DNA from: Gemmatimonadales bacterium
Lineage (GTDB): Bacteria; Gemmatimonadota; Glassbacteria; GWA2-58-10
Direction: 5' to 3'
Assembly (NCBI GenBank): GCA_024278175.1
Contig: JAJRTS010000004.1
Coordinates: 1 to 53,971 of the forward strand
Length of the DNA: 53,971 nt
The position numbers and the translations under genes are program-made. The notes under the pieces were generated by a model, which saw nothing but the letters and a program-made list of their open reading frames with translations, was not told the origin of the DNA and made no database searches. Of the stretch, positions 26,674 through 38,345 are shown in pieces. The first letter of the stretch is position 1. Every line of letters starts with the position of its first letter.

Positions 26674-27473
26674 GGGTTGAACCCTGTGCTTAAATTTAAT
26701 TATTTCAGAGTCATAGGCAAGCAGCCTAATTGATAAAGCAATATCCGGCGGAGGTCAATGTTCAAGCTCGCCGCAAGTGCCGGAATGCGCGAGGATGGGT
26801 AACCATTGACGCAAGAAATACGCTAAGAAAAAACCAGGCAAACAACGTTGGGATTAGCCGTTCAGCGTCGCTACCAGCAAGATAAAAGGAGCAGAATACA
26901 AATAGATGGCGTTTCCCATTGACAATCTATTATCAATCTATTAATCTGAAATATCCTACTAAACCGGAGCGAAAAGGCTTAACCGGTGTTTCGCACGCTC
27001 CCGGCAGCACCGGCCATGGCAGCCTTTGGCAGCTATCCGGCTACATGTGAACGGTTAGCGCTGTAAATACCGGTAACGCCGGGAGTTGGGTGGGCATCCA
27101 GCCGGGGAGCTTATTGGGGCCCGTCGAGTTTGCGAATAATATATCAAAAACTTTGAAAGGTGTTGAAATTGTTGATGATACATCGGTAAGTTCCAGTATT
27201 GACCTGATCGAGATGCGCAGCCCTGGACGAGAAGAATGTAAAGGGAGCCCTCGAAGCCGGGTTATCCCGCATTGGCCGAAGGCTTTTGTTAACCGAGAGA
27301 ACCTCCGAAAAGGAGACCTATGCAACTTGCCATCCACCATCAGGAGCCCTGTCCCACGTTTCCAGAACACCCGGCAGTCCTGTAAGTGGAGGGTTGGATT
27401 TTCTGCTACCGCGGGGTATGGCCGTTTCCGCAAACAGTTTTTTACTTCACTCCATTCAATGTGGAGAGGTAAA
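26674..27473. other. 800-bp intergenic region and long cytochrome leader
   Basis: No convincing gene is seen. An open frame runs into the cytochrome from 27090, but it lacks a signal peptide and the good start is at 27474. TTGACA at 26919 with TAATCT 17 bp later is a possible promoter, overlapping an 11-bp tandem repeat (CAATCTATTAT, CAATCTATTAA) at 26923-26944. Near 27303-27315 a short hairpin (CTCC-GAAAA-GGAG) sits in sequence that only faintly recalls a GEMM-type riboswitch core; the full consensus is not visible. Confidence 0.4.
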
Positions 27474-29819
27474 ATGTCCCGGAAATTTATTACATTCATT
27501 GTGGTTTCATGCCTTAGTCTGTTGATGAGTTCGGCGGTGTTCGCCGCGGATGCGGCGATAAAGCTCGTCGGTTATTCACCATGGCAGGTAGAGGGTCTGG
27601 AGCTGGAAGCCGGGAGAGCCGCGCCGTTGACGGTTATCGGTGTGGGGCAGCCGGTGTACATGAAAAGCGAGTATGAAGGGACCTATTCCTGGTCGCTGAC
27701 CGCACCGGATGGCTCGGCTGCGGTTTTGAGTTCGACAACGGAGCGCGAAATTCACCTGATTCCCGACACAATCGGCTCCTACGTGGTCGCTCTCGATTTC
27801 ACCGATTCCGAGGGTAATGCCAGCTCGGATGAGATTACAGTCACCGGCGCGAATTATGTCGGTGTCGGCGGCATCGGAGGTGCCGCTCTCTCCGCGGGCC
27901 AGTGCAAGACGTGCCATTCCGCCAAGGTGACCGAGTGGGAACAGACCGGCCACGCCAGTATGCTGCAGCGCGGCCTTGATGGTTTTATACTCGAGGACGG
28001 CGCGTATCCTGAAGAGTGCCTCCAGTGCCATACTGTGGGTTATGATACGCAGGCTGACAACGGCGGTTTCGATGATGTGGCAAAAGAAGTGGGCTGGACT
28101 TTTCCCGACACTCTGATGCCGGGCAACTATGACAGTCTTGTGGCCAATTATCCTGCACTGGCCCAACTGGCCAACATTCAGTGCGAGAACTGTCATGGGC
28201 CGGGGAGCGAGCACAACGGAGACAAGAGTAAGATCGCGGTTTCCTACGATGCCGGTGTCTGCTCTTACTGCCACTGGGATGAGGAGACCGGGCAAGCGCC
28301 TCCCGAGTGGGAAAATTCAAAACACGGCAAGGAACTCGACCCCAGCGAGTATTTCACCGGCAGCACGAAATGTGTGGGGTGCCACACGGCAGAGGGATTC
28401 TTCCAACAGAACGTTGACCAGGTCGAGGTGACCGCCGACTACAAAACTCCCCACGGACAGACCTGCGTGGTCTGCCACGATCCGCATGAGCAGACCGTCG
28501 AACACCAGCTCCGCGTTGTTTCCGACATGGCCTATCTCGACGCGGATACCGGTGAACCCAAGTACTCCACCACGGGTGAACCGACCCAGGCCTGCACGGT
28601 CTGCCATCACTTCCGCCCCGGCAGGGACTTCCCCGGCACGGTGCCTCATCACTCGCACCAGACCGAGATGCTCAACAACGTGGCCGGCTGGATGAATCCA
28701 GACAAGACGATGCCCGCCACTAACGCGCACGGTACGCTTATCGCGGAGCGTTGCGTGGTCTGCCACATGGCCGATGGCGTGGGCGAAAAGGCTAACATTG
28801 TCGGCGGGCACACGTTCAAGATGCACGCTGTCGCCGATACGATCAACAACCTGTCCGCGGACGTATACCTGACCGAAGCCTGCGTCGGTTGCCACACCGG
28901 CATCGGTGAAAATTTCGACATCGACGGTGTGCAGACAAAGGTAACGCTGATGCTCAACGAGCTGTTCGACCGTCTGCCCAAAGCCACCGGCGGCCGCCTG
29001 GCCGGCTTCCCGGCTTACGACAGCACGGACTTCAAGGACGGCTACATTAGCGAGGATCAGCTTACGGCCGCTTTCAACTGGTACATCGTGGATTACGACG
29101 GCTCGAAGGGTGTGCATAACCCGGGCATGTCCGTGGCCCTGCTGACGGATGCGCTCGAGCGCGTGCCGGCTACCGCTGAATGCGCCAGTTGCGATATCAA
29201 CGGCGACGGCAAGCTTGGTATTTCCGATGCCGTCAAGCTGATTCTGCTGGGTGCGGAGGACAACACCCAGGCCTGTATCGACCGCAACGGCGATTTCGTC
29301 TATGATGTCAGGGATGTGATCAAACTGATCACCGATATCTGGTCCGGAAGCTGTGGCGGCACAATGCTGGCCGGCGTGGGCGGCGTGGAGCTGATCAACT
29401 TCCAGATGGAACTGACCGCCGAGCAGATCCAGGCTGTCCAGAGCGTGATTGAGCAGCTTGAGCTGACAAGCGAGCAGGCCGCGGCCTTCCAGGTGGCCCT
29501 GTTCGGCGACGGCAGCGGCAGGACCGGTCTGCCGAGGGCTTTCTCGCTCGGCCAGAACGCTCCCAACCCGTTCAACCCCAGCACGACGATCAAGTTCGCA
29601 GTGCCGGAGGGTAAGGCCGGCCCGGTCACGTTGAAGGTCTACGACGTGCGCGGCCGTCTGGTCCGCTCCCTGGTTGATGGTTTCAAGGAGGCCGGAGACT
29701 ACACCGTGTTCTGGGGCGGAATCGACGAGAACGGGCAGAATGTGTCCAGCGGCGTGTATTTTTACCGCATGATCGCCGGAGACTTCACGCAAACCCGCAA
29801 GATGGTCATGCTGAAATAA
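27474..29819 (+). CDS. Secreted nine-haem cytochrome c with dockerin and C-terminal sorting domain
   Basis: A 781-residue exported protein. The ATG at 27474 has GGAGAGG four bases upstream and begins a clear signal peptide (ending VFAAD). An Ig-like or PKD-like domain spans about 25-130. Nine CxxCH haem motifs follow, from CKTCH to CVGCH, across about 145-490. A dockerin-like pair of calcium loops then appears (DINGDGKLGISDAVKLIL and DRNGDFVYDVRDVIKLI). The last 85 residues are a FlgD-like/type IX sorting domain (NAPNPFNPSTTIKFAVPE, VSSGVYFYRMIAG). The parts together suggest a multihaem electron carrier delivered to the cell surface and perhaps held in a protein complex through its dockerin. 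No cohesin is in the window. A strong terminator follows. Confidence 0.9.
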   Translation: MSRKFITFIVVSCLSLLMSSAVFAADAAIKLVGYSPWQVEGLELEAGRAAPLTVIGVGQPVYMKSEYEGTYSWSLTAPDGSAAVLSSTTEREIHLIPDTIGSYVVALDFTDSEGNASSDEITVTGANYVGVGGIGGAALSAGQCKTCHSAKVTEWEQTGHASMLQRGLDGFILEDGAYPEECLQCHTVGYDTQADNGGFDDVAKEVGWTFPDTLMPGNYDSLVANYPALAQLANIQCENCHGPGSEHNGDKSKIAVSYDAGVCSYCHWDEETGQAPPEWENSKHGKELDPSEYFTGSTKCVGCHTAEGFFQQNVDQVEVTADYKTPHGQTCVVCHDPHEQTVEHQLRVVSDMAYLDADTGEPKYSTTGEPTQACTVCHHFRPGRDFPGTVPHHSHQTEMLNNVAGWMNPDKTMPATNAHGTLIAERCVVCHMADGVGEKANIVGGHTFKMHAVADTINNLSADVYLTEACVGCHTGIGENFDIDGVQTKVTLMLNELFDRLPKATGGRLAGFPAYDSTDFKDGYISEDQLTAAFNWYIVDYDGSKGVHNPGMSVALLTDALERVPATAECASCDINGDGKLGISDAVKLILLGAEDNTQACIDRNGDFVYDVRDVIKLITDIWSGSCGGTMLAGVGGVELINFQMELTAEQIQAVQSVIEQLELTSEQAAAFQVALFGDGSGRTGLPRAFSLGQNAPNPFNPSTTIKFAVPEGKAGPVTLKVYDVRGRLVRSLVDGFKEAGDYTVFWGGIDENGQNVSSGVYFYRMIAGDFTQTRKMVMLK

Positions 29820-31071: not shown

Positions 31072-32325
31072 TTATTCCTCGCTCTCAACTTCGCGTAGCT
31101 TAAGATACAGCGCCCCGAGCACTATCAGCAGCATCAGCGTGGCTCCCGCCAGCCACCAGCGACGGGCCTCGTGTGCCTTGAGCAGCCCCAGGGCTTCGGC
31201 CATGGAGAGTTTGCCCTGCTCAATGCCGGGTCTGGCCGAGGCGGCCACTGCCGAGTCGCTGAACGTGTGCACCACGGTGCGGGTCTGGATATAGTTCTGG
31301 CGCATGCTGCGTAGCTCTAAAGAGAGGTCGGAGGTTTCCATGCCCTTCTGTTCGGCAAGCTCCACCAGCTCACGGGTGGAATGCATCAGGCCGTTCAGGC
31401 TGTCCATCGTGACTTTCATCGCCAGGCTTACCGCAAAACCGGGATCATCAGGCTCTTGGGCATGACAGGTTCCGCAGGCCGACTGGTCGCCGGCGGCCAG
31501 CATCTCGTCCGTGGGATGGGCGATGCCGTGGTTGCCGTGGCAGGTAACGCAGCCCGGGCTTTCCATCATCTCGAATATCTCAGCGTGGAAGCTCTGACGA
31601 TAGAGCTGCTGGTTGTTCACGTGGCACATGCCGCACACGGCGGAGATGTCGCTGATCTCAGGTGGAAAAGCTCCGTGGTTGCTGTGGCAGTCGTTGCAGG
31701 CCGGTGCGCTTAAATCACCGCGCTCAAGCAGTGGCACACCATGCACACTGGTTGCAAACTGCTCGTACTGGTCGGTGGGAATACCGTAGTCGGCCATGTA
31801 TTCCTTGTCCGAGTGGCAGTGCGAACAGGTCTTGGGCAGGTTGAGCGGATACACCGGAGAGCCGGGGTCACTGGCGCCGCGGATATCGTGAACACTGTGG
31901 CAGCTAATGCACTGGGCCACCTTGGTGTCCCCCTGTTCCAGCAGCATGCCGTGGAGGCTGGTAACATATTTCTCCATCTGGTCCACCGGCAGCGACGGGT
32001 TGAACGAGCGCATGTATGTGGCATCACTGTGGCACTTGCTGCAAAGGGCTGGAATATCGGCCGTAGCGGGTTTCCCCTTGAACCCCTGTGCGGGGTCGTC
32101 GCGGTCGTGACGGCGCTCGTTGGTGGGGTCTCCGCCGTGACAGTCGTTGCAGAGGATACCGACGCTGTTGTGGATATCGTGCTCGTAGAGCTTGGCGGGC
32201 TTGGATAAATTGGGCATCAGCTTGCTGTGGCACTTGATGCAGTTGTTTTCCTGCTGAGCCGCCAGCGGTGCGGCGAGCATCAGGAGGCAGGCGAATACGG
32301 CTGCTGTCAACTGCTTGGAACTCAT
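31072..32325 (-). CDS. Membrane-anchored nine-haem cytochrome c
   Basis: A 417-residue exported protein with a signal peptide (ending PLAAQ) and nine CxxCH motifs: CIKCH, CNDCH, CSKCH, CISCH, CSHCH, CNDCH, CGMCH, CVTCH and CGTCH. A helical region is followed by one C-terminal membrane span (WWLAGATLMLLIVLGALYL) that would tether it to the inner membrane facing the periplasm. It follows cytochrome b by 34 bp and has AAGGA upstream of its ATG. In this position it probably replaces the cytochrome c1 of a classical bc complex, taking electrons from the Rieske/cytochrome b unit and passing them to periplasmic carriers. Confidence 0.92.
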   Translation of the reverse strand: MSSKQLTAAVFACLLMLAAPLAAQQENNCIKCHSKLMPNLSKPAKLYEHDIHNSVGILCNDCHGGDPTNERRHDRDDPAQGFKGKPATADIPALCSKCHSDATYMRSFNPSLPVDQMEKYVTSLHGMLLEQGDTKVAQCISCHSVHDIRGASDPGSPVYPLNLPKTCSHCHSDKEYMADYGIPTDQYEQFATSVHGVPLLERGDLSAPACNDCHSNHGAFPPEISDISAVCGMCHVNNQQLYRQSFHAEIFEMMESPGCVTCHGNHGIAHPTDEMLAAGDQSACGTCHAQEPDDPGFAVSLAMKVTMDSLNGLMHSTRELVELAEQKGMETSDLSLELRSMRQNYIQTRTVVHTFSDSAVAASARPGIEQGKLSMAEALGLLKAHEARRWWLAGATLMLLIVLGALYLKLREVESEE

Positions 32326-32359: not shown

Positions 32360-32983
32360 TTAGGATACGGCGTAGCCCACGGCTGTCATGATAACGATAA
32401 AGCCCACGATAGCGATACCCATCAGCGTAACCAGCCCGGCTTTTGGCGAATCGGTGCCGCTCCATTTGTCCCAGAGCGGGAGGAAAAACCAGGCCAGAGC
32501 ACCCAGGTTGAACACTGCCAGTCCCACCAGTTCACCCTCGATCGGTCCGATATGGGCGGGCAGCATCTTGAGCGTCTGGAACATGAACATGAAATACCAC
32601 TCGGGTTTGATCCCGGCTGGCGCCGGCGCGAACGCGTCGGCCTTGGTGCCCAGCTCCCAGGGGAAAAACACGGCCAGGAAGTTGATTATGGCCAGGGCGA
32701 ACAGCCAGAACATCATCTCACGCAGCACGAAATTTGGCATGGACGGCATAACCTTCTGCTGCTCAGGCGGCAGGTTTTCCATGCTCATCGGCTTGCTCAT
32801 GCCCTGACGCTGCAGCAGAAACAGGTGGACCGCAAGCATTATCGTTGTTATCCCGGGCAGGATCGCCACGTGAAGGCCGAAAAACCTGCCCAGCGTGGCG
32901 CCGGTGACATCCGCCCCGCCGCGGACGAGCCGGAGGAGGAACTCGCCGATAACCGGTACGCTGCCGGCCATGTCCGTGCCCAC
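32360..32983 (-). CDS. Cytochrome b, C-terminal part after an in-frame amber
   Basis: This is the continuation of the cytochrome b gene, in the same frame as the part at 33005-33451. It includes helix D with the two haem-ligand histidines (FFGLHVAILPGITTIMLAVHLFLL) and the family motif PEWYFMFMFQTLKMLP of the quinol-oxidation (Qo) site region, then three more membrane helices. The first possible start, a GTG at 32983, has no ribosome binding site, and independent translation would lose LSFFATK, which is conserved in the family. It therefore looks like the second half of one protein and not a separate gene. Reading through gives a normal 363-residue cytochrome b. Confidence 0.85.
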   Translation of the reverse strand: MGTDMAGSVPVIGEFLLRLVRGGADVTGATLGRFFGLHVAILPGITTIMLAVHLFLLQRQGMSKPMSMENLPPEQQKVMPSMPNFVLREMMFWLFALAIINFLAVFFPWELGTKADAFAPAPAGIKPEWYFMFMFQTLKMLPAHIGPIEGELVGLAVFNLGALAWFFLPLWDKWSGTDSPKAGLVTLMGIAIVGFIVIMTAVGYAVS

Positions 32984-33004
32984 CTTGGTGGCGAAAAATG
33001 ATAG

Positions 33005-33007
33005 CTA
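33005..33007 (-). other. In-frame TAG inside cytochrome b
   Basis: On the minus strand the codons read CTG CCT TGG AAC TAG CTA TCA TTT (L P W N stop L S F). Cytochrome b proteins typically have PWDQ or PWNQ here, so TAG stands where a Gln codon (CAG) is expected: one C-to-T change. Both sides are in the same frame. TAG also ends the M19, Rieske (10386), MotA-like and 24-haem genes, so it is a normal stop in this genome. Confidence 0.95.
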
Positions 33008-33451
33008 GTTCCAAGGCAGAAGGTAGCCGCTGAACCCGAACGTGAATGTCAGGATCAGCAGTACCATCCCGCTCATCCAGGTCATCTCCCGGGGTTTTCG
33101 GTAGCTTTTGAGGAAAAAGACGCTGAACATGTGCACGAATACGCAGAACACCATCAGGTTGGCGCTCCAGGAGTGGATATCGCGCACCAGCCAGCCGAAA
33201 TTGACCTCGCTCACCAGGAATTTAAGGCTTTCGAAGCTGCTCTCCGGGCCGGGCCGGTAGTAGACGAGCAGCAGGATGCCGGTAACCGCCTGAATCATGA
33301 ACAGGAAGAGGCTGACGCCGCCGAAATAGTACCATATCGACGCGCTGGAGGCGGGGACTTCCTTATGGCGCAGGAAGCCGATTATACCGTCCACGTCGAT
33401 CCGCTCGTTAACCCAGCCGTAAAGCTGGTCGTAGCGTTTCTTCAGCGACAT
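33005..33451 (-). CDS. Cytochrome b (QcrB/PetB-like), N-terminal part ending at amber
   Basis: The first 148 residues of a bc-type cytochrome b. After a short cytoplasmic start (MSLKKRYDQLYGWVNERID) come helices A to C. Helix B has the haem-ligand pair in IHSWSANLMVFCVFVHMF, and GFSGYLLPWN is the end of helix C. The reading frame then meets TAG and continues downstream. Haem ligands are split across the two parts (helix B here, helix D beyond), so the truncated product could not hold either haem alone. The ATG at 33451 directly follows the Rieske gene with a GAGG upstream. In a working complex this subunit oxidises menaquinol and moves electrons across the inner membrane. Confidence 0.88.
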   Translation of the reverse strand: MSLKKRYDQLYGWVNERIDVDGIIGFLRHKEVPASSASIWYYFGGVSLFLFMIQAVTGILLLVYYRPGPESSFESLKFLVSEVNFGWLVRDIHSWSANLMVFCVFVHMFSVFFLKSYRKPREMTWMSGMVLLILTFTFGFSGYLLPWN

Positions 33452-33454
33452 CCC

Positions 33455-33898
33455 TCAGGCCTCCTCTGAGATGAATACTTCGTCGTCCTGCACGTTGACC
33501 TTAAGCGCGGTAAGCGGACGCGGAGGCGGACCGCTGACATTGATTCCGTTCAGGTCGTATTTACCGTTATGGCACGCGCACCAGATCACATAGTCCTCAG
33601 GAACATACTGGACCGTGCAGTCCAGGTGGGTGCAGATGGCCAGGAACGCCTTGAACTCGCCCTGCTGGTCGCGAACCACCAGAGCCGGACGGCTACCGAA
33701 CTTGACTATCTTGCTGCTGTTGTTGGCAAACGCTTCAACCTTGCCCGCGCTTACCGCTTCCACGGATACGTCCTGCACTGGCGGGGGAGTGAGGTACTTG
33801 AGCACCGGGTAGGTGACAGCGGCCATAAAAGTAGCGGCGCTGCCGCCAAGCAACCAATTGAGGAAGTTTCTGCGTCCGCTTGCGGGACCCGCGGCCAT
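33455..33898 (-). CDS. Rieske iron-sulfur subunit of a bc-type complex
   Basis: A 147-residue Rieske protein with CTHLDC (box I), CACHNG (box II) and the following GPPPRPL loop, all typical of bc1/b6f Rieske subunits. The N-terminus GRRNFLNWLLGGSAATF carries a twin-arginine-like motif and a membrane anchor. AAGGAA sits seven bases before the ATG. It stops only 3 bp before the cytochrome b start, so the two are one transcription unit. It takes one electron from menaquinol at the Qo site and passes it to the multihaem c subunit encoded downstream. Upstream, TTGCGC and TATATT 18 bp apart near 33945-33975 could be a separate promoter. Confidence 0.93.
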   Translation of the reverse strand: MAAGPASGRRNFLNWLLGGSAATFMAAVTYPVLKYLTPPPVQDVSVEAVSAGKVEAFANNSSKIVKFGSRPALVVRDQQGEFKAFLAICTHLDCTVQYVPEDYVIWCACHNGKYDLNGINVSGPPPRPLTALKVNVQDDEVFISEEA

Positions 33899-34058: not shown

Positions 34059-36068
34059 CTACCAGAGCTGTCCGTGACAGGTGAAACAACTCACTTTGGC
34101 ATCGCCACCCAGGTAGTCGGCTCCGTGACAACCGGCGCAGTAGCCAATACCCATCGTGGCAATACGCGCTCCGTGGAAACTGTCGCTGTCATCGTCCAGC
34201 CAGCCGGTGGACGGATGGCCGCTCTGGTCGTCGTGGCAGAGGCTGCAGCTCTTGCCGCTGACTCCGCCGGAGTAATCCTCGCCATGGCAGGCGGCGCACT
34301 CGCTCAGTCCGCGGTTCGATGCGTCCAGGCCATGGAAATTCTCGCTACTGGAGGTCAGCCAGCCCGTGGCCGGATGACCGCTGGGACCGTCGTGGCAGGT
34401 GTAGCAACTCACGTTGGCGTAACCGCCGCTGTAGTCGGCTCCGTGGCAGCCCGCGCAGTACGAGGGGCCGAACCTTGCAAGGCGTGCTCCGTGGAACTTG
34501 TCGCTGGTGGTGTCGAACCAGCCGGTGGCCGGGTGTCCGCTTTCGGTGGCGTGGCAAACCTTGCAACTCTGTCCGCTGAGTCCGCCTGTAAAATCCGCGC
34601 CGTGGCAGCGGGCGCAGTCCGTGGGTACGCGCTTGCTGGCGGCCAGGCCGTGAAAATTCTCGCTGGCGGCATCGAGCCAGCCCGTGGCCGGGTGCCCGCT
34701 GGGACCGTCGTGGCAGGTATAGCAACTCACGTTGGTCTCGCCGCCCGTAAAGTCCGCACCGTGGCAGCCGGCGCAGTAGTTCAGGCTGGTTTCGACCAGA
34801 CGCCTGGCGTGGAAATCATCGCTGGCGGCGTCGAGCCAGCCGGTGGCCGGGTGCCCGCTGGCGGTGGCATGACACTCGGAGCAGCTTTTGCCGCTCAGCC
34901 CGCCGGTAAAATCCGCACCGTGGCAGCGGGCGCAGGCGCTCAGTCCGCGGTTCGACGCGTCAAGGCCGTGGAAGTTGTCGCTGGCGGTGTCCAGCCAGCC
35001 GGTGGCCGGGTGGCCGCTGGGGCCGTCGTGGCAGGTATAGCAACTCACGTTGGCCTCGCCGCCCGTAAAGTCCGCACCGTGGCAGCCGGCGCAGTAGTCC
35101 AAGCTGGTTTCGATCAGGCGCTCGGCGTGGAAACTCTCGCTGGCGGCGTCGAGCCAGCCCGTGGCCGGATGTCCACTGGGCCCGTCGTGACACTCGAAAC
35201 AACTCTGTCCGCTGGTGCCGCCGGTGAAATCCTCGCCATGGCAGGTAGCGCATTCGGCCAGGCCGCGCGCGGATGCCTCCAGGCCGTGGAAATTCTCGCT
35301 GGCGGGATCAAGCCAGCCCTCGTCCGGGTGCCCGCTGGGCCCGTTGTGGCAGTCGTAGCAGGTAACTGCGGTGTAGCCGCCCTTCAGGTCGGCGCCGTGG
35401 CAGGCGGCGCAGTAAGGCTCGCCCCGGCTGTTGTAGCGATCACCGTGGAAGGCGCTGCCGCGCTCGACAAAACCGGTGGCGGGATGGCCGCTCTCACTTG
35501 GGTGACAGGCCTTGCAGCTTTGTCCGCTGGTACCGCCGGCAAAATCCTCGCCGTGGCAGCGGGCGCAGTCGTCCAGCCCGCGGTCGGCGGCGGCCAGGCC
35601 GTGGAAACTCTCGCTGGCGGCATCAACCCAGCCGGTGGACGGGTGCCCGCTGGGGCCGTTGTGGCACTGGTAGCAGGTGGTGCCGCCGTGCTCCTCGCCC
35701 CGGTAGTCCTCGCCGTGGCACTGAGTGCAACTCTGAGGACCCTCGGCGGCAACCGCATTCCCGTGGAAGTTGGCGTTGGTGCGGACAAGGTAACCCTCGG
35801 GGTGCCCGCTGGGCCCGTCATGGCACTCGTAGCAACTTTTCCGGCTACTGCCGCCGTCGTATTTTTCGCCGTGGCACTCGGCGCAGGAGATCAAGCCCAC
35901 CTCGGCGATTTTCAGGCCGTGGAAATCCTCGCTGGTGGATTTCATCCAGTCGGCGGGGTGCACGTTGGTCGCCGGATCGTTCGGGGCCTTGCGCTCGGCG
36001 CAGCCTCCGGCCAGCGCAACAGCCAGGGCCAGCAGCAGGGCCGCGGATATGATGCATCGCACTTTCAT
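34059..36068 (-). CDS. 24-haem lipoprotein cytochrome made of twelve 53-residue repeats
   Basis: A 669-residue lipoprotein (MKVRCIISAALLLALAVAL then AGGC lipobox, Cys23) with 24 CxxCH motifs. The first haem motif of each repeat falls at residues 62, 114, 168, 220, 273, 326, 379, 432, 485, 538, 591 and 644, so the last eight repeats are exactly 53 residues apart. Each unit reads roughly CxxCHGxDFTGG, SCxxCHDGPSGHPATGW, then FHG. The extra His in FHG and in SGHP give two non-haem histidines per two haems, enough for bis-His ligation throughout. The repeat ends abruptly after the last haem. The start at 36068 has GAGAG seven bases upstream. It is likely an outer-membrane or periplasm-spanning electron wire. 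It ends with TAG. Confidence 0.93.
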   Translation of the reverse strand: MKVRCIISAALLLALAVALAGGCAERKAPNDPATNVHPADWMKSTSEDFHGLKIAEVGLISCAECHGEKYDGGSSRKSCYECHDGPSGHPEGYLVRTNANFHGNAVAAEGPQSCTQCHGEDYRGEEHGGTTCYQCHNGPSGHPSTGWVDAASESFHGLAAADRGLDDCARCHGEDFAGGTSGQSCKACHPSESGHPATGFVERGSAFHGDRYNSRGEPYCAACHGADLKGGYTAVTCYDCHNGPSGHPDEGWLDPASENFHGLEASARGLAECATCHGEDFTGGTSGQSCFECHDGPSGHPATGWLDAASESFHAERLIETSLDYCAGCHGADFTGGEANVSCYTCHDGPSGHPATGWLDTASDNFHGLDASNRGLSACARCHGADFTGGLSGKSCSECHATASGHPATGWLDAASDDFHARRLVETSLNYCAGCHGADFTGGETNVSCYTCHDGPSGHPATGWLDAASENFHGLAASKRVPTDCARCHGADFTGGLSGQSCKVCHATESGHPATGWFDTTSDKFHGARLARFGPSYCAGCHGADYSGGYANVSCYTCHDGPSGHPATGWLTSSSENFHGLDASNRGLSECAACHGEDYSGGVSGKSCSLCHDDQSGHPSTGWLDDDSDSFHGARIATMGIGYCAGCHGADYLGGDAKVSCFTCHGQLW
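34062..35885 (-). repeat. Twelve tandem ~159-bp coding repeats, with 318-bp higher-order units
   Basis: The repeated region of the 24-haem gene. Two alternating unit types (CARCHGADFTGGLSG and CAGCHGADFTGGETN) form a 106-residue pair that recurs from residue 326 on, showing recent duplication of pairs. Such near-identical DNA is prone to copy-number change and to assembly collapse. Confidence 0.9.
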
Positions 36069-36106: not shown

Positions 36107-37078
36107 TTACTCGCCGTGGCAGACCGCGCAGACCGGGTCGGCCTCGGTTTCCTCGCCGTGGCAGGACACGCACTGCTCAATATTGGTCCGCGCCTCGATT
36201 GCATGACGGCCGCCGGAAGTGCGGCTGGCCCACAGGCCGCGCTGGTGCGAACGGGGATAGACATTTTCCTCGAGGTGGCACTCGGCGCAGAAGCTGCTGC
36301 TCTCGTGGCAGGAGGCGCACTCGATGCGACCGGAGCGCACGTCAAGCGGGTGTTTGAACTCGTAGCCCGGCTGGTGCGGACGGTTGCCGAAGAACAGATT
36401 GTCTCCCTGGTGGCACTCCATGCACCAACTGCGCTGGTGGCATGCCATGCAGCTCTCCGCGTTGTCGAGCTTGGCGTCATCTCCGTGCTGGCGGAGGCGG
36501 ATCCATTCGGAGTTGGTGTGGTCGGCGGGGATTTTACCGCGCTCCTCCTGGATCTTGCCGCGTCCCTCGACGTGGCAGGTCGTACACTCATTGGGAGCCC
36601 GCATCCCGTTGTGGCAGGTAACGCAAAGGTTCATCCCGGGGCCTGTTCCCATTCCCGGTATATGCGAATCGACCGAACTTGCGGAAGTGGAAACGTCATT
36701 GTGGCAGACCTCGCAGGAGATTTCCTGCTTGCCGTGCACCTGGTGGTTGAACAGGGGGATGTAGTCCTCGACCCGCTGGTTGGCGTCCGGGTTATCCATG
36801 TCCGAATGGCACAACGTGCAGTTGTCGGTATCCTCTATATCGTGGCACTCACCGCATTTATCCATCGACGGCATCAGGTTGTCCGTGCCCGCGGTGCTTT
36901 CGCTCACGCCCTCATGGCAGGTCTGGCACTCCAGCTCCAGGTCTTCCACGTGCAGGTTGTGGGGGAAAATGATCGTAGTCGGGTTACCGGCGGAGGAAGC
37001 AGCCACCGCGGCGAACGCCAGGCCCAGAACGATCAGAGCGGCCCCGACAGCGTTTATTTTACGTTTAATGGTTAGCAT
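36107..37078 (-). CDS. Periplasmic twelve-haem cytochrome c
   Basis: A 323-residue exported protein with a signal peptide (INAVGAALIVLGLAFAAVAA) and twelve CxxCH motifs, from CQTCH to CAVCH, spread through its whole length. Many additional histidines (FPHNLH, FNHQVH) can act as distal ligands. The ATG at 37078 lies within the last codons of the upstream beta-barrel gene (14-bp overlap), so the two are translationally coupled. In porin-cytochrome conduits a barrel in the outer membrane surrounds or contacts a periplasmic multihaem cytochrome; this pair fits that plan. The 24-haem lipoprotein gene follows after 38 bp. Confidence 0.92.
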   Translation of the reverse strand: MLTIKRKINAVGAALIVLGLAFAAVAASSAGNPTTIIFPHNLHVEDLELECQTCHEGVSESTAGTDNLMPSMDKCGECHDIEDTDNCTLCHSDMDNPDANQRVEDYIPLFNHQVHGKQEISCEVCHNDVSTSASSVDSHIPGMGTGPGMNLCVTCHNGMRAPNECTTCHVEGRGKIQEERGKIPADHTNSEWIRLRQHGDDAKLDNAESCMACHQRSWCMECHQGDNLFFGNRPHQPGYEFKHPLDVRSGRIECASCHESSSFCAECHLEENVYPRSHQRGLWASRTSGGRHAIEARTNIEQCVSCHGEETEADPVCAVCHGE

Positions 37079-38345
37079 GGCCGCTGCCTGAACGGTGTCT
37101 GAAAGCGCTGCTGAAATTGACATTGAAGTTGATCAGCACGCGCCAGTCCTTGCTGAACAGGTTGTTGTTGACGTCTTCGAACTCGATACCGGCATCCACC
37201 ACTTCGCTGGGTTTCCAGTGCATGCCGAAAATAGTGCTGAACAGGTAGTCGCGCCCGGACTCGTCGTCCAGCTCGTAAAAGCGAAAACGTGAGTAGTCCA
37301 GCGTGCCGAACAGTTCGAACTTGTGATGCGCCAGCGGCAGGCTGCCGCCGAGGGCGAACCCGTCCTCGGCCCCGCCGAATCCGTAGCCCCGGTAGTAGTT
37401 GGCCCAGCCGTAGGAGCCGGCGGCGCCGAGCGTGATGTAGCCGCTGTTTTCGTCCTCGGTCATGATTGCGCTATAGCTGGCGTTGAGCGTTACTTCCTCG
37501 CTCAGGAAGATATTGAGTCCGCCGCGAAGCTGGTCGTTGCCCTCGAGTTCGAACGTGCGGCTATAGTAGCTCTGATAATACAGGCGTGGCTGATAGTGCT
37601 TGTATTCGCCGAAAAAGTTGAAGCGTTTGTGTCCCTGGTAGCGCAGCCTGACCTGGCCCTTCTGGACCTGGTCGGTGAGCATGTTCACGTCCAGGCGGCT
37701 GTAGAGCTTGAAGCCGCCCGGCAAGGTGGCGTTGGCGTTGACGCCGATCTCGCGGAAGGCGGTCCGGCCGTAACGGTTCTTCTGATACCAGCCCACGCCG
37801 ATTGCGAGTTTGCGCGAGGGTTTAATCCGCACGTACAGCCCGCCGGAGCCTGCCTTGTCGTAGCCGCGGGAGACGAACCTGCGGGTGAAGGGGCTCTCCG
37901 TGCCGACATAGCCGGTAAACTTGACCTTACCTTTGCCGCCCAACTCCAGCTTGACCCCGTCGAGTGTCATGCTGCCCGGCCCCAGGTGCAGCCACTGACG
38001 GCCTAGACTGAGCTTGCTGGCCCTGGTGTCCCATTGCATATAGGCGTTGTACATCCGCCAGTTGGGGTCGGTGGAGTAGTCCACGCTCAGGTCGTTGGAA
38101 ACGCGCATGTACGTATTGAAGCTGACAGTGTTCTTGTGGCCCACGCCCTTGAGCTTGAGGCGCAGGAACTGGTAGAAGCGGTAGTTCTGGTCGGAATTTG
38201 CGCTGTCGCGGGTAAAGCGCTCGTAGCTGTAGAGGCTGGAGCGGGCCTGGCCTGTGTAGAGCAACGTCATCGCCCGTCCGGCCACCGGAAGGGCCATGCA
38301 AATTGCTATGGTGAATAGCACCGTTTTGTTGAAGAGCCTGGTCAT
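37065..38345 (-). CDS. Outer-membrane beta-barrel, candidate porin of a porin-cytochrome conduit
   Basis: A 426-residue protein with a signal peptide (ending GRAM) and a long run of amphipathic beta-strands (RFYQFLRLKLKGVGHKN, RLRYQGHKRFNFFGEY, FELFGTLDYSRFRFYEL), enough for roughly 18 to 22 strands. This size suits a barrel that can house a multihaem protein. It is the first gene of the set 38345-34059, and the next gene overlaps its end. A strong promoter with a palindrome over the -35 lies about 70 bp upstream. No family is certain from sequence alone; the role is inferred from the neighbouring 12- and 24-haem cytochromes. Confidence 0.78.
   Translation of the reverse strand: MTRLFNKTVLFTIAICMALPVAGRAMTLLYTGQARSSLYSYERFTRDSANSDQNYRFYQFLRLKLKGVGHKNTVSFNTYMRVSNDLSVDYSTDPNWRMYNAYMQWDTRASKLSLGRQWLHLGPGSMTLDGVKLELGGKGKVKFTGYVGTESPFTRRFVSRGYDKAGSGGLYVRIKPSRKLAIGVGWYQKNRYGRTAFREIGVNANATLPGGFKLYSRLDVNMLTDQVQKGQVRLRYQGHKRFNFFGEYKHYQPRLYYQSYYSRTFELEGNDQLRGGLNIFLSEEVTLNASYSAIMTEDENSGYITLGAAGSYGWANYYRGYGFGGAEDGFALGGSLPLAHHKFELFGTLDYSRFRFYELDDESGRDYLFSTIFGMHWKPSEVVDAGIEFEDVNNNLFSKDWRVLINFNVNFSSAFRHRSGSGHANH

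Follow-up and report, generated by a model that had tools for sequence, protein, structure and literature searches.

A 24-haem repeat cytochrome of variable unit number in a putative porin-cytochrome operon of Candidatus Glassbacteria

The window analysed here, a 53,971-nucleotide stretch of a Candidatus Glassbacteria genome, encodes a protein in which haem-binding motifs recur at near-regular intervals. A sequence-only reading had proposed that this protein is a modular molecular wire – raising the questions of how the repeat is built, how its length varies among relatives and which task it would perform in the cell. Tandem-repeat haem wires (PMC10138318) and porin-cytochrome conduits (PMC6148476) are known already, and a survey of multihaem gene neighbourhoods reported some with more than one hundred haem-binding motifs (PMC11475568). 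We found no earlier description of the two-haem repeat, of the natural series of lengths in which it occurs or of where its gene is placed.

The two-haem repeat and its duplicated block

The gene is read on the minus strand from an ATG at 36068 and ends, stop codon included, at 34059. Its features are as follows.

34059 to 36068, minus strand: 24-haem repeat cytochrome, a probable lipoprotein; 669 aa, 12 units of 52-54 aa, each with 2 haems and 2 spare His
36000 to 36068, minus strand: predicted signal peptide and lipobox (LAGGC, Cys 23), read from the sequence
34168 to 35666, minus strand: tandem array of a 318-bp (106-aa, 4-haem) super-repeat in 4.7 copies (Tandem Repeats Finder score 1322)

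The protein contains the 24 CxxCH motifs that the sequence-only reading had counted, compared with a mean of 0.27 and a maximum of 4 in composition-shuffled copies (n=1000). Its units follow the pattern HP-(10-11 residues)-FH[G/A]-(10)-CxxCHG-(11-12)-CxxCH-...-SG, with two spare His per two haems, and the spacing from haem to haem alternates between 17-18 and 35-36 residues. Successive FH[G/A] motifs lie 52, 54 and 52 residues apart and then 53 residues apart eight times in succession, bearing out the exact spacing claimed for eight repeats; the last unit, as also claimed, stops directly past its second haem, at a C-terminal CFTCHGQLW. The 49 His of the protein comprise 24 within motifs, 12 in FH, 11 in GHP, one in VHP and one stray. 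The proposed complement of one spare His per haem is thus present, with one additional His that the proposal did not include.

We observed that the units alternate in an ABAB pattern. Units two apart (lag 2) share a mean identity of 63%, adjacent units (lag 1) 48% – a contrast reached in 0 of 2000 permutations – and pairwise identity is 89% between units 6 and 8 and 77% between units 7 and 9, with adjacent units mostly at 40-60%. Because lag-2 identity exceeds lag-1 identity and the 318-bp period outscores a 159-bp period (802) in Tandem Repeats Finder, the duplicated block in this gene, judged by these comparisons, is a pair of units with 106 aa and 4 haems. The earlier description of twelve two-haem units therefore holds, at 52-54 aa per unit, except that the block duplicated here is two units and not one. 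Another mode of expansion is seen in the Glassbacteria genome G003, where single 52-aa units (units 5-8) have multiplied, and in some proteins from a second phylum (below) mean unit identity is highest at lag 3. With 3 to 13 blocks among relatives, bacteria appear to lengthen and shorten the repeat protein through the gain or loss of blocks. Units 6 and 8 share 92% nucleotide identity, and no exact repeat is longer than 44 bp; the array could have been misassembled, though nothing demands it.

The claim that no described cytochrome has this exact repeat is consistent with our searches: none of the curated models in Pfam and NCBIfam describes the two-haem repeat exactly, and we found no sequence or fold match among solved proteins. 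Several candidate matches were set aside. PF22113 scored 57.7 bits against a cut-off of 30 with no single stretch passing, which we read as CxxCH density; Pfam matches to C7, c3 and MtrC models were likewise treated as motif-density matches. Sequence matches in the PDB to the DnaJ zinc domain, angiostatin and cytochrome c4 were dismissed as chance similarity between Cys/Gly-rich sequences. A literature search found no paper on multihaem cytochromes of Glassbacteria or on repeat cytochromes of Glassbacteria or Krumholzibacteria, an absence that is weak evidence given poor coverage of subscription journals.

Relatives, unit number and haem ligation

A six-frame search of 61 genomes recovered the gene from every one of the six host-family genomes and from no other. 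Using a profile of two units, we matched the same 6 family genomes in a 298-genome sample of the host phylum (0 of the 292 others), 16 of 80 genomes from the phylum to which Ca. Krumholzibacteriia belongs and, more weakly, 4 of 198 genomes in the phylum of a Geobacter record. Viral contigs yielded no relatives of the repeat cytochrome.

Glassbacteria proteins carry 24, 22, 18 (one as CxxxxCH) and 14 haems, with a further 24 spread over two contigs in G001 and at least 10 in G005; their unit numbers are 7, 9, 11, 12 and 12. In the second phylum unit numbers range from 3 to 13; whole genes there encode 6, 8, 16, 20, 24 or 26 haems and partial genes 22-24. A modular repeat of changeable length, as first proposed, is thus borne out by relatives with 3 to 13 units. 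Contig ends fall within the repeat array in G001 (C8 and C11; L077, L078) and G005 (C429; L014). Because contigs end inside the array, the number of units counted in short-read assemblies could be incorrect for some of the genomes. Two loci, L015 (7093-9320) and L083 (5793-8027), encode two repeat cytochromes in tandem, the first with 20 haems and the second with 6, and no adjoining 12-haem gene.

In alignments of four-unit stretches the invariant columns are almost exclusively CxxCH residues, spare His and Gly. Across 22 related proteins or fragments from the two phyla, 177 of 178 units retain at least two linker His, so the matched spare His noted in the window's gene are conserved and a potential distal His is available for each CxxCH, as in bis-His multihaem c-type cytochromes. 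This conservation favours bis-His ligation of the repeat haems, which we regard as well supported by the alignments.

Operon context and a predicted outer-membrane conduit

To place the repeat cytochrome in a cellular setting, we considered its neighbours in the window, among them the predicted porin, 12-haem and Rieske/cytochrome b genes, which the sequence-only reading had left out and which point to the likely function.

36107 to 37123, minus strand: 12-haem cytochrome, the putative periplasmic or trans-outer-membrane cytochrome of a conduit; 12 CxxCH, coding start probably at 37078
37065 to 38345, minus strand: predicted outer-membrane beta-barrel (porin) of the conduit, from its beta segments and conserved position
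33455 to 33898, minus strand: Rieske iron-sulfur protein (Pfam PF00355, PF25471)
32360 to 33451, minus strand: cytochrome b, split by an in-frame TAG at 33005-33007
31072 to 32325, minus strand: 9-haem cytochrome with a C-terminal membrane anchor; 9-haem orthologs stand in the same place in G001, G002 and G004
27090 to 29819, plus strand: divergent neighbour; its 9-haem product carries a sorting tail for type IX secretion (TIGR04183), and translation probably begins further downstream

The porin and 12-haem genes lie upstream of the repeat cytochrome, and the Rieske, cytochrome b and anchored 9-haem genes downstream. Outer-membrane conduits follow a plan of an anchor protein, a periplasmic multihaem cytochrome and an outer-surface lipoprotein cytochrome, the last being the part replaced most often (PMC6148476). 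The operon layout matches this plan: a gene for a predicted beta-barrel and a multihaem cytochrome gene adjoin the gene for a putative lipoprotein with many haem motifs. On the basis of this layout, together with the Rieske/cytochrome b genes, we consider it likely that the repeat protein is the outer-surface lipoprotein cytochrome of a porin-cytochrome conduit, its repeat giving adjustable reach and capacity.

Each part of this assignment has its own footing. The LAGGC lipobox at the N-terminus indicates that the 24-haem protein is probably a lipoprotein, and a lipobox or lipobox-like Cys is present in the Glassbacteria orthologs that retain an N-terminus; we infer that it sits on the outer surface, though it could instead face the periplasm. 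The predicted porin has 20 amphipathic beta segments (11.6 in shuffles) and occupies an equivalent position in L077, L076, L014 and L080; it matched nothing in Pfam, and its assignment as a barrel is a prediction. Several of its homologs end in Phe, the usual C-terminal residue of outer-membrane beta-barrels. The best PDB sequence match of the 12-haem protein is GSU1996 (3ov0, E 5.7e-14), and TIGR04257 also matches it.

The porin/12-haem/repeat cytochrome order recurs in G001, G003, G004 and G005 and in the second-phylum loci L080 and L081; the G002 contig begins at the 12-haem gene, and L016 has no clear porin. Almost every locus with flanking sequence on that side has a 12-haem homolog adjoining the repeat cytochrome. 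Its lack in L015 and L083 is a point against the conduit assignment, as is the in-frame stop in the cytochrome b of this assembly. The TAG falls within GYLLPWN*LSFFATK; relatives G001 and G002 have Glu at this codon and one intact open reading frame. It is a nonsense mutation, a strain variant or a sequencing error; recoding of TAG was rejected, as other genes here stop with TAG and relatives have Glu. Only in Glassbacteria loci did we see the Rieske/cytochrome b/9-haem part. In G002 (L079 3050-8053), 17-haem NrfH/DmsE-like, 8-haem and NrfD-like genes separate the repeat cytochrome from the Rieske/cytochrome b genes.

In the mechanism we infer, from haem attachment and ligation through surface location and direction of flow to linear stacking, each 53-aa unit would bind two c-type haems through its CxxCH motifs, with the GHP and FHG His as distal ligands, making it a self-contained bis-His two-haem module; the host genome encodes cytochrome c assembly proteins. 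Porin, 12-haem protein and repeat cytochrome would together carry electrons between periplasm and exterior. With a Rieske/cytochrome b complex encoded in the operon, outward flow is the more likely direction; it would run from quinol through Rieske/cytochrome b to a 9-haem cytochrome, then to the 12-haem protein in the porin and on to the 24-haem protein. The anchored 9-haem cytochrome is a likely partner of the Rieske/cytochrome b complex. The final acceptor might be a mineral, a partner cell or a secreted cytochrome. The protein with the type IX tail is likely to be a secreted extracellular cytochrome and is a possible extracellular partner of the conduit; this neighbour occurs in three Glassbacteria genomes (the window's, G001 at L078 5455-7860 and G004 at L076 14589-16916). 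Duplication of one unit, or in this gene of a four-haem pair, would extend the chain in frame with its ligand stoichiometry intact, so that reach and electron storage could change stepwise.

Wire, store or filament

If the conduit assignment is right, Candidatus Glassbacteria and relatives of Krumholzibacteriia would be expected to carry out extracellular electron transfer. We also put forward a more specific proposal, possible but tentative: that the undescribed two-haem repeat forms rigid rods of continuously stacked haems, adjustable in length over evolution, and that in two candidate bacterial lineages these rods act on porin conduits as surface wires made of one covalent chain. At full extension, wires of 6 to 26 haems would by our estimate measure some 5 to 25 nm.

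The repeat is undescribed as far as we found, but modular haem wires have a precedent in GSU1996, with four tandem trihaem domains (PMC10138318). GSU1996-type proteins share with the 24-haem protein the arrangement of tandem haem domains in one chain; they differ in having a 3-haem unit with one His-Met haem per domain and a periplasmic location. TIGR04257, the tandem c7 trihaem model, did not match the 24-haem protein, whose repeat holds 2 (or 4) haems. GSU1996 has also been described as a capacitor (PMC10138318), and the 24-haem protein could likewise be mainly an electron store at the surface or in the periplasm, with stack continuity and reach of little weight. Its high haem density, 24 haems in 647 mature residues, would suit storage. 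The association with a porin conduit in two phyla argues otherwise, and ordered repeats, though compatible with storage, are unnecessary for it. We therefore regard a mainly storing protein as rather unlikely, while noting that storage and conduction are mutually compatible.

Structure prediction bears on whether the haems could form one stack. A model of a four-unit fragment (residues 247-460, 105 aligned rows) was confident throughout, with a pLDDT of 90.2, a pTM of 0.72 and no residue below pLDDT 50. It consists of helices with no strands; FHG opens one helix and the first CxxCH closes the next. The full-length model, built from 17 rows, was of low confidence (pLDDT 58, pTM 0.26). This low full-length score, together with Gly/Ser-rich stretches near GPSGHP, would fit two- or four-haem blocks that fold separately and are loosely joined, with electrons hopping by collision and no rigid stack. 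We judge this arrangement unlikely, given the confident fragment model and given that invariant ligand His in the linkers and a near-fixed unit length leave scant room for a loose linker. A single linear stack of haems running unbroken along the repeat is a plausible hypothesis. Foldseek returned no match to the four-unit model in the PDB at E < 1, in a search that had no positive control, and a structure search against a viral library also gave no match.

OmcS, OmcE and OmcZ resemble the 24-haem protein in their many bis-His haems and their role in long-range extracellular electron transfer, but they are polymers of 4-8-haem subunits, whereas the 24-haem protein is one covalent chain with a predicted lipid anchor. 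That it polymerises into such an extracellular filament is very unlikely: polyhaem bis-His cytochromes can form filaments (PMC12954529) and regular repeats could join end to end, but the lipobox implies anchoring in a membrane, we found no sequence or fold match to solved OmcS, OmcE or OmcZ (fold search without a positive control), and the ligand set is complete in one polypeptide – as it also is in OmcZ – whereas in OmcS and OmcE a His of the next subunit ligates an interfacial haem (PMC12954529).

The wire proposal gains interest from relatives of the repeat cytochrome, which appear to supply a natural series of lengths (6, 8, 14, 16, 18, 20, 22, 24 and 26 haems) built from a single haem module within one kind of operon. 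Such a series would permit a direct test of wire length against electron-transfer rate and reach, and the repeat unit would be an in-frame extendable module for protein electronics.

Among known conduit cytochromes, MtrC has 10 haems in two pentahaem domains set between beta-barrel domains. The 24-haem protein is like MtrC, OmcB and ExtC/ExtD in being a putative lipoprotein with many CxxCH motifs whose operon also encodes a periplasmic multihaem cytochrome and a protein resembling a porin. It differs from MtrC in that the whole mature protein is a two-haem repeat of variable copy number. Its uniform repeats and strandless four-unit model do not have the architecture of MtrC, MtrF and OmcA, and the NCBIfam OmcA/MtrC models did not match it.

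Clusters in the Desulfobacterota loci L084 and L086 encode a porin, a 5-haem lipoprotein and a large multihaem lipoprotein, in a layout like extBCD. Their large lipoproteins share CHG-D--GG...SC..CH...GHP units with the repeat cytochromes (profile E 2e-15 to 7e-13), and hhalign pairs the 5-haem protein of L084 with the C-terminal end of the 12-haem protein from Glassbacteria (probability 97%). These units differ in being irregular and interspersed with CxxxxCH domains, with no uniform repeat. Also in Desulfobacterota, L066/L087 hold similar porin/5-haem/large lipoprotein clusters with irregular versions of the unit.
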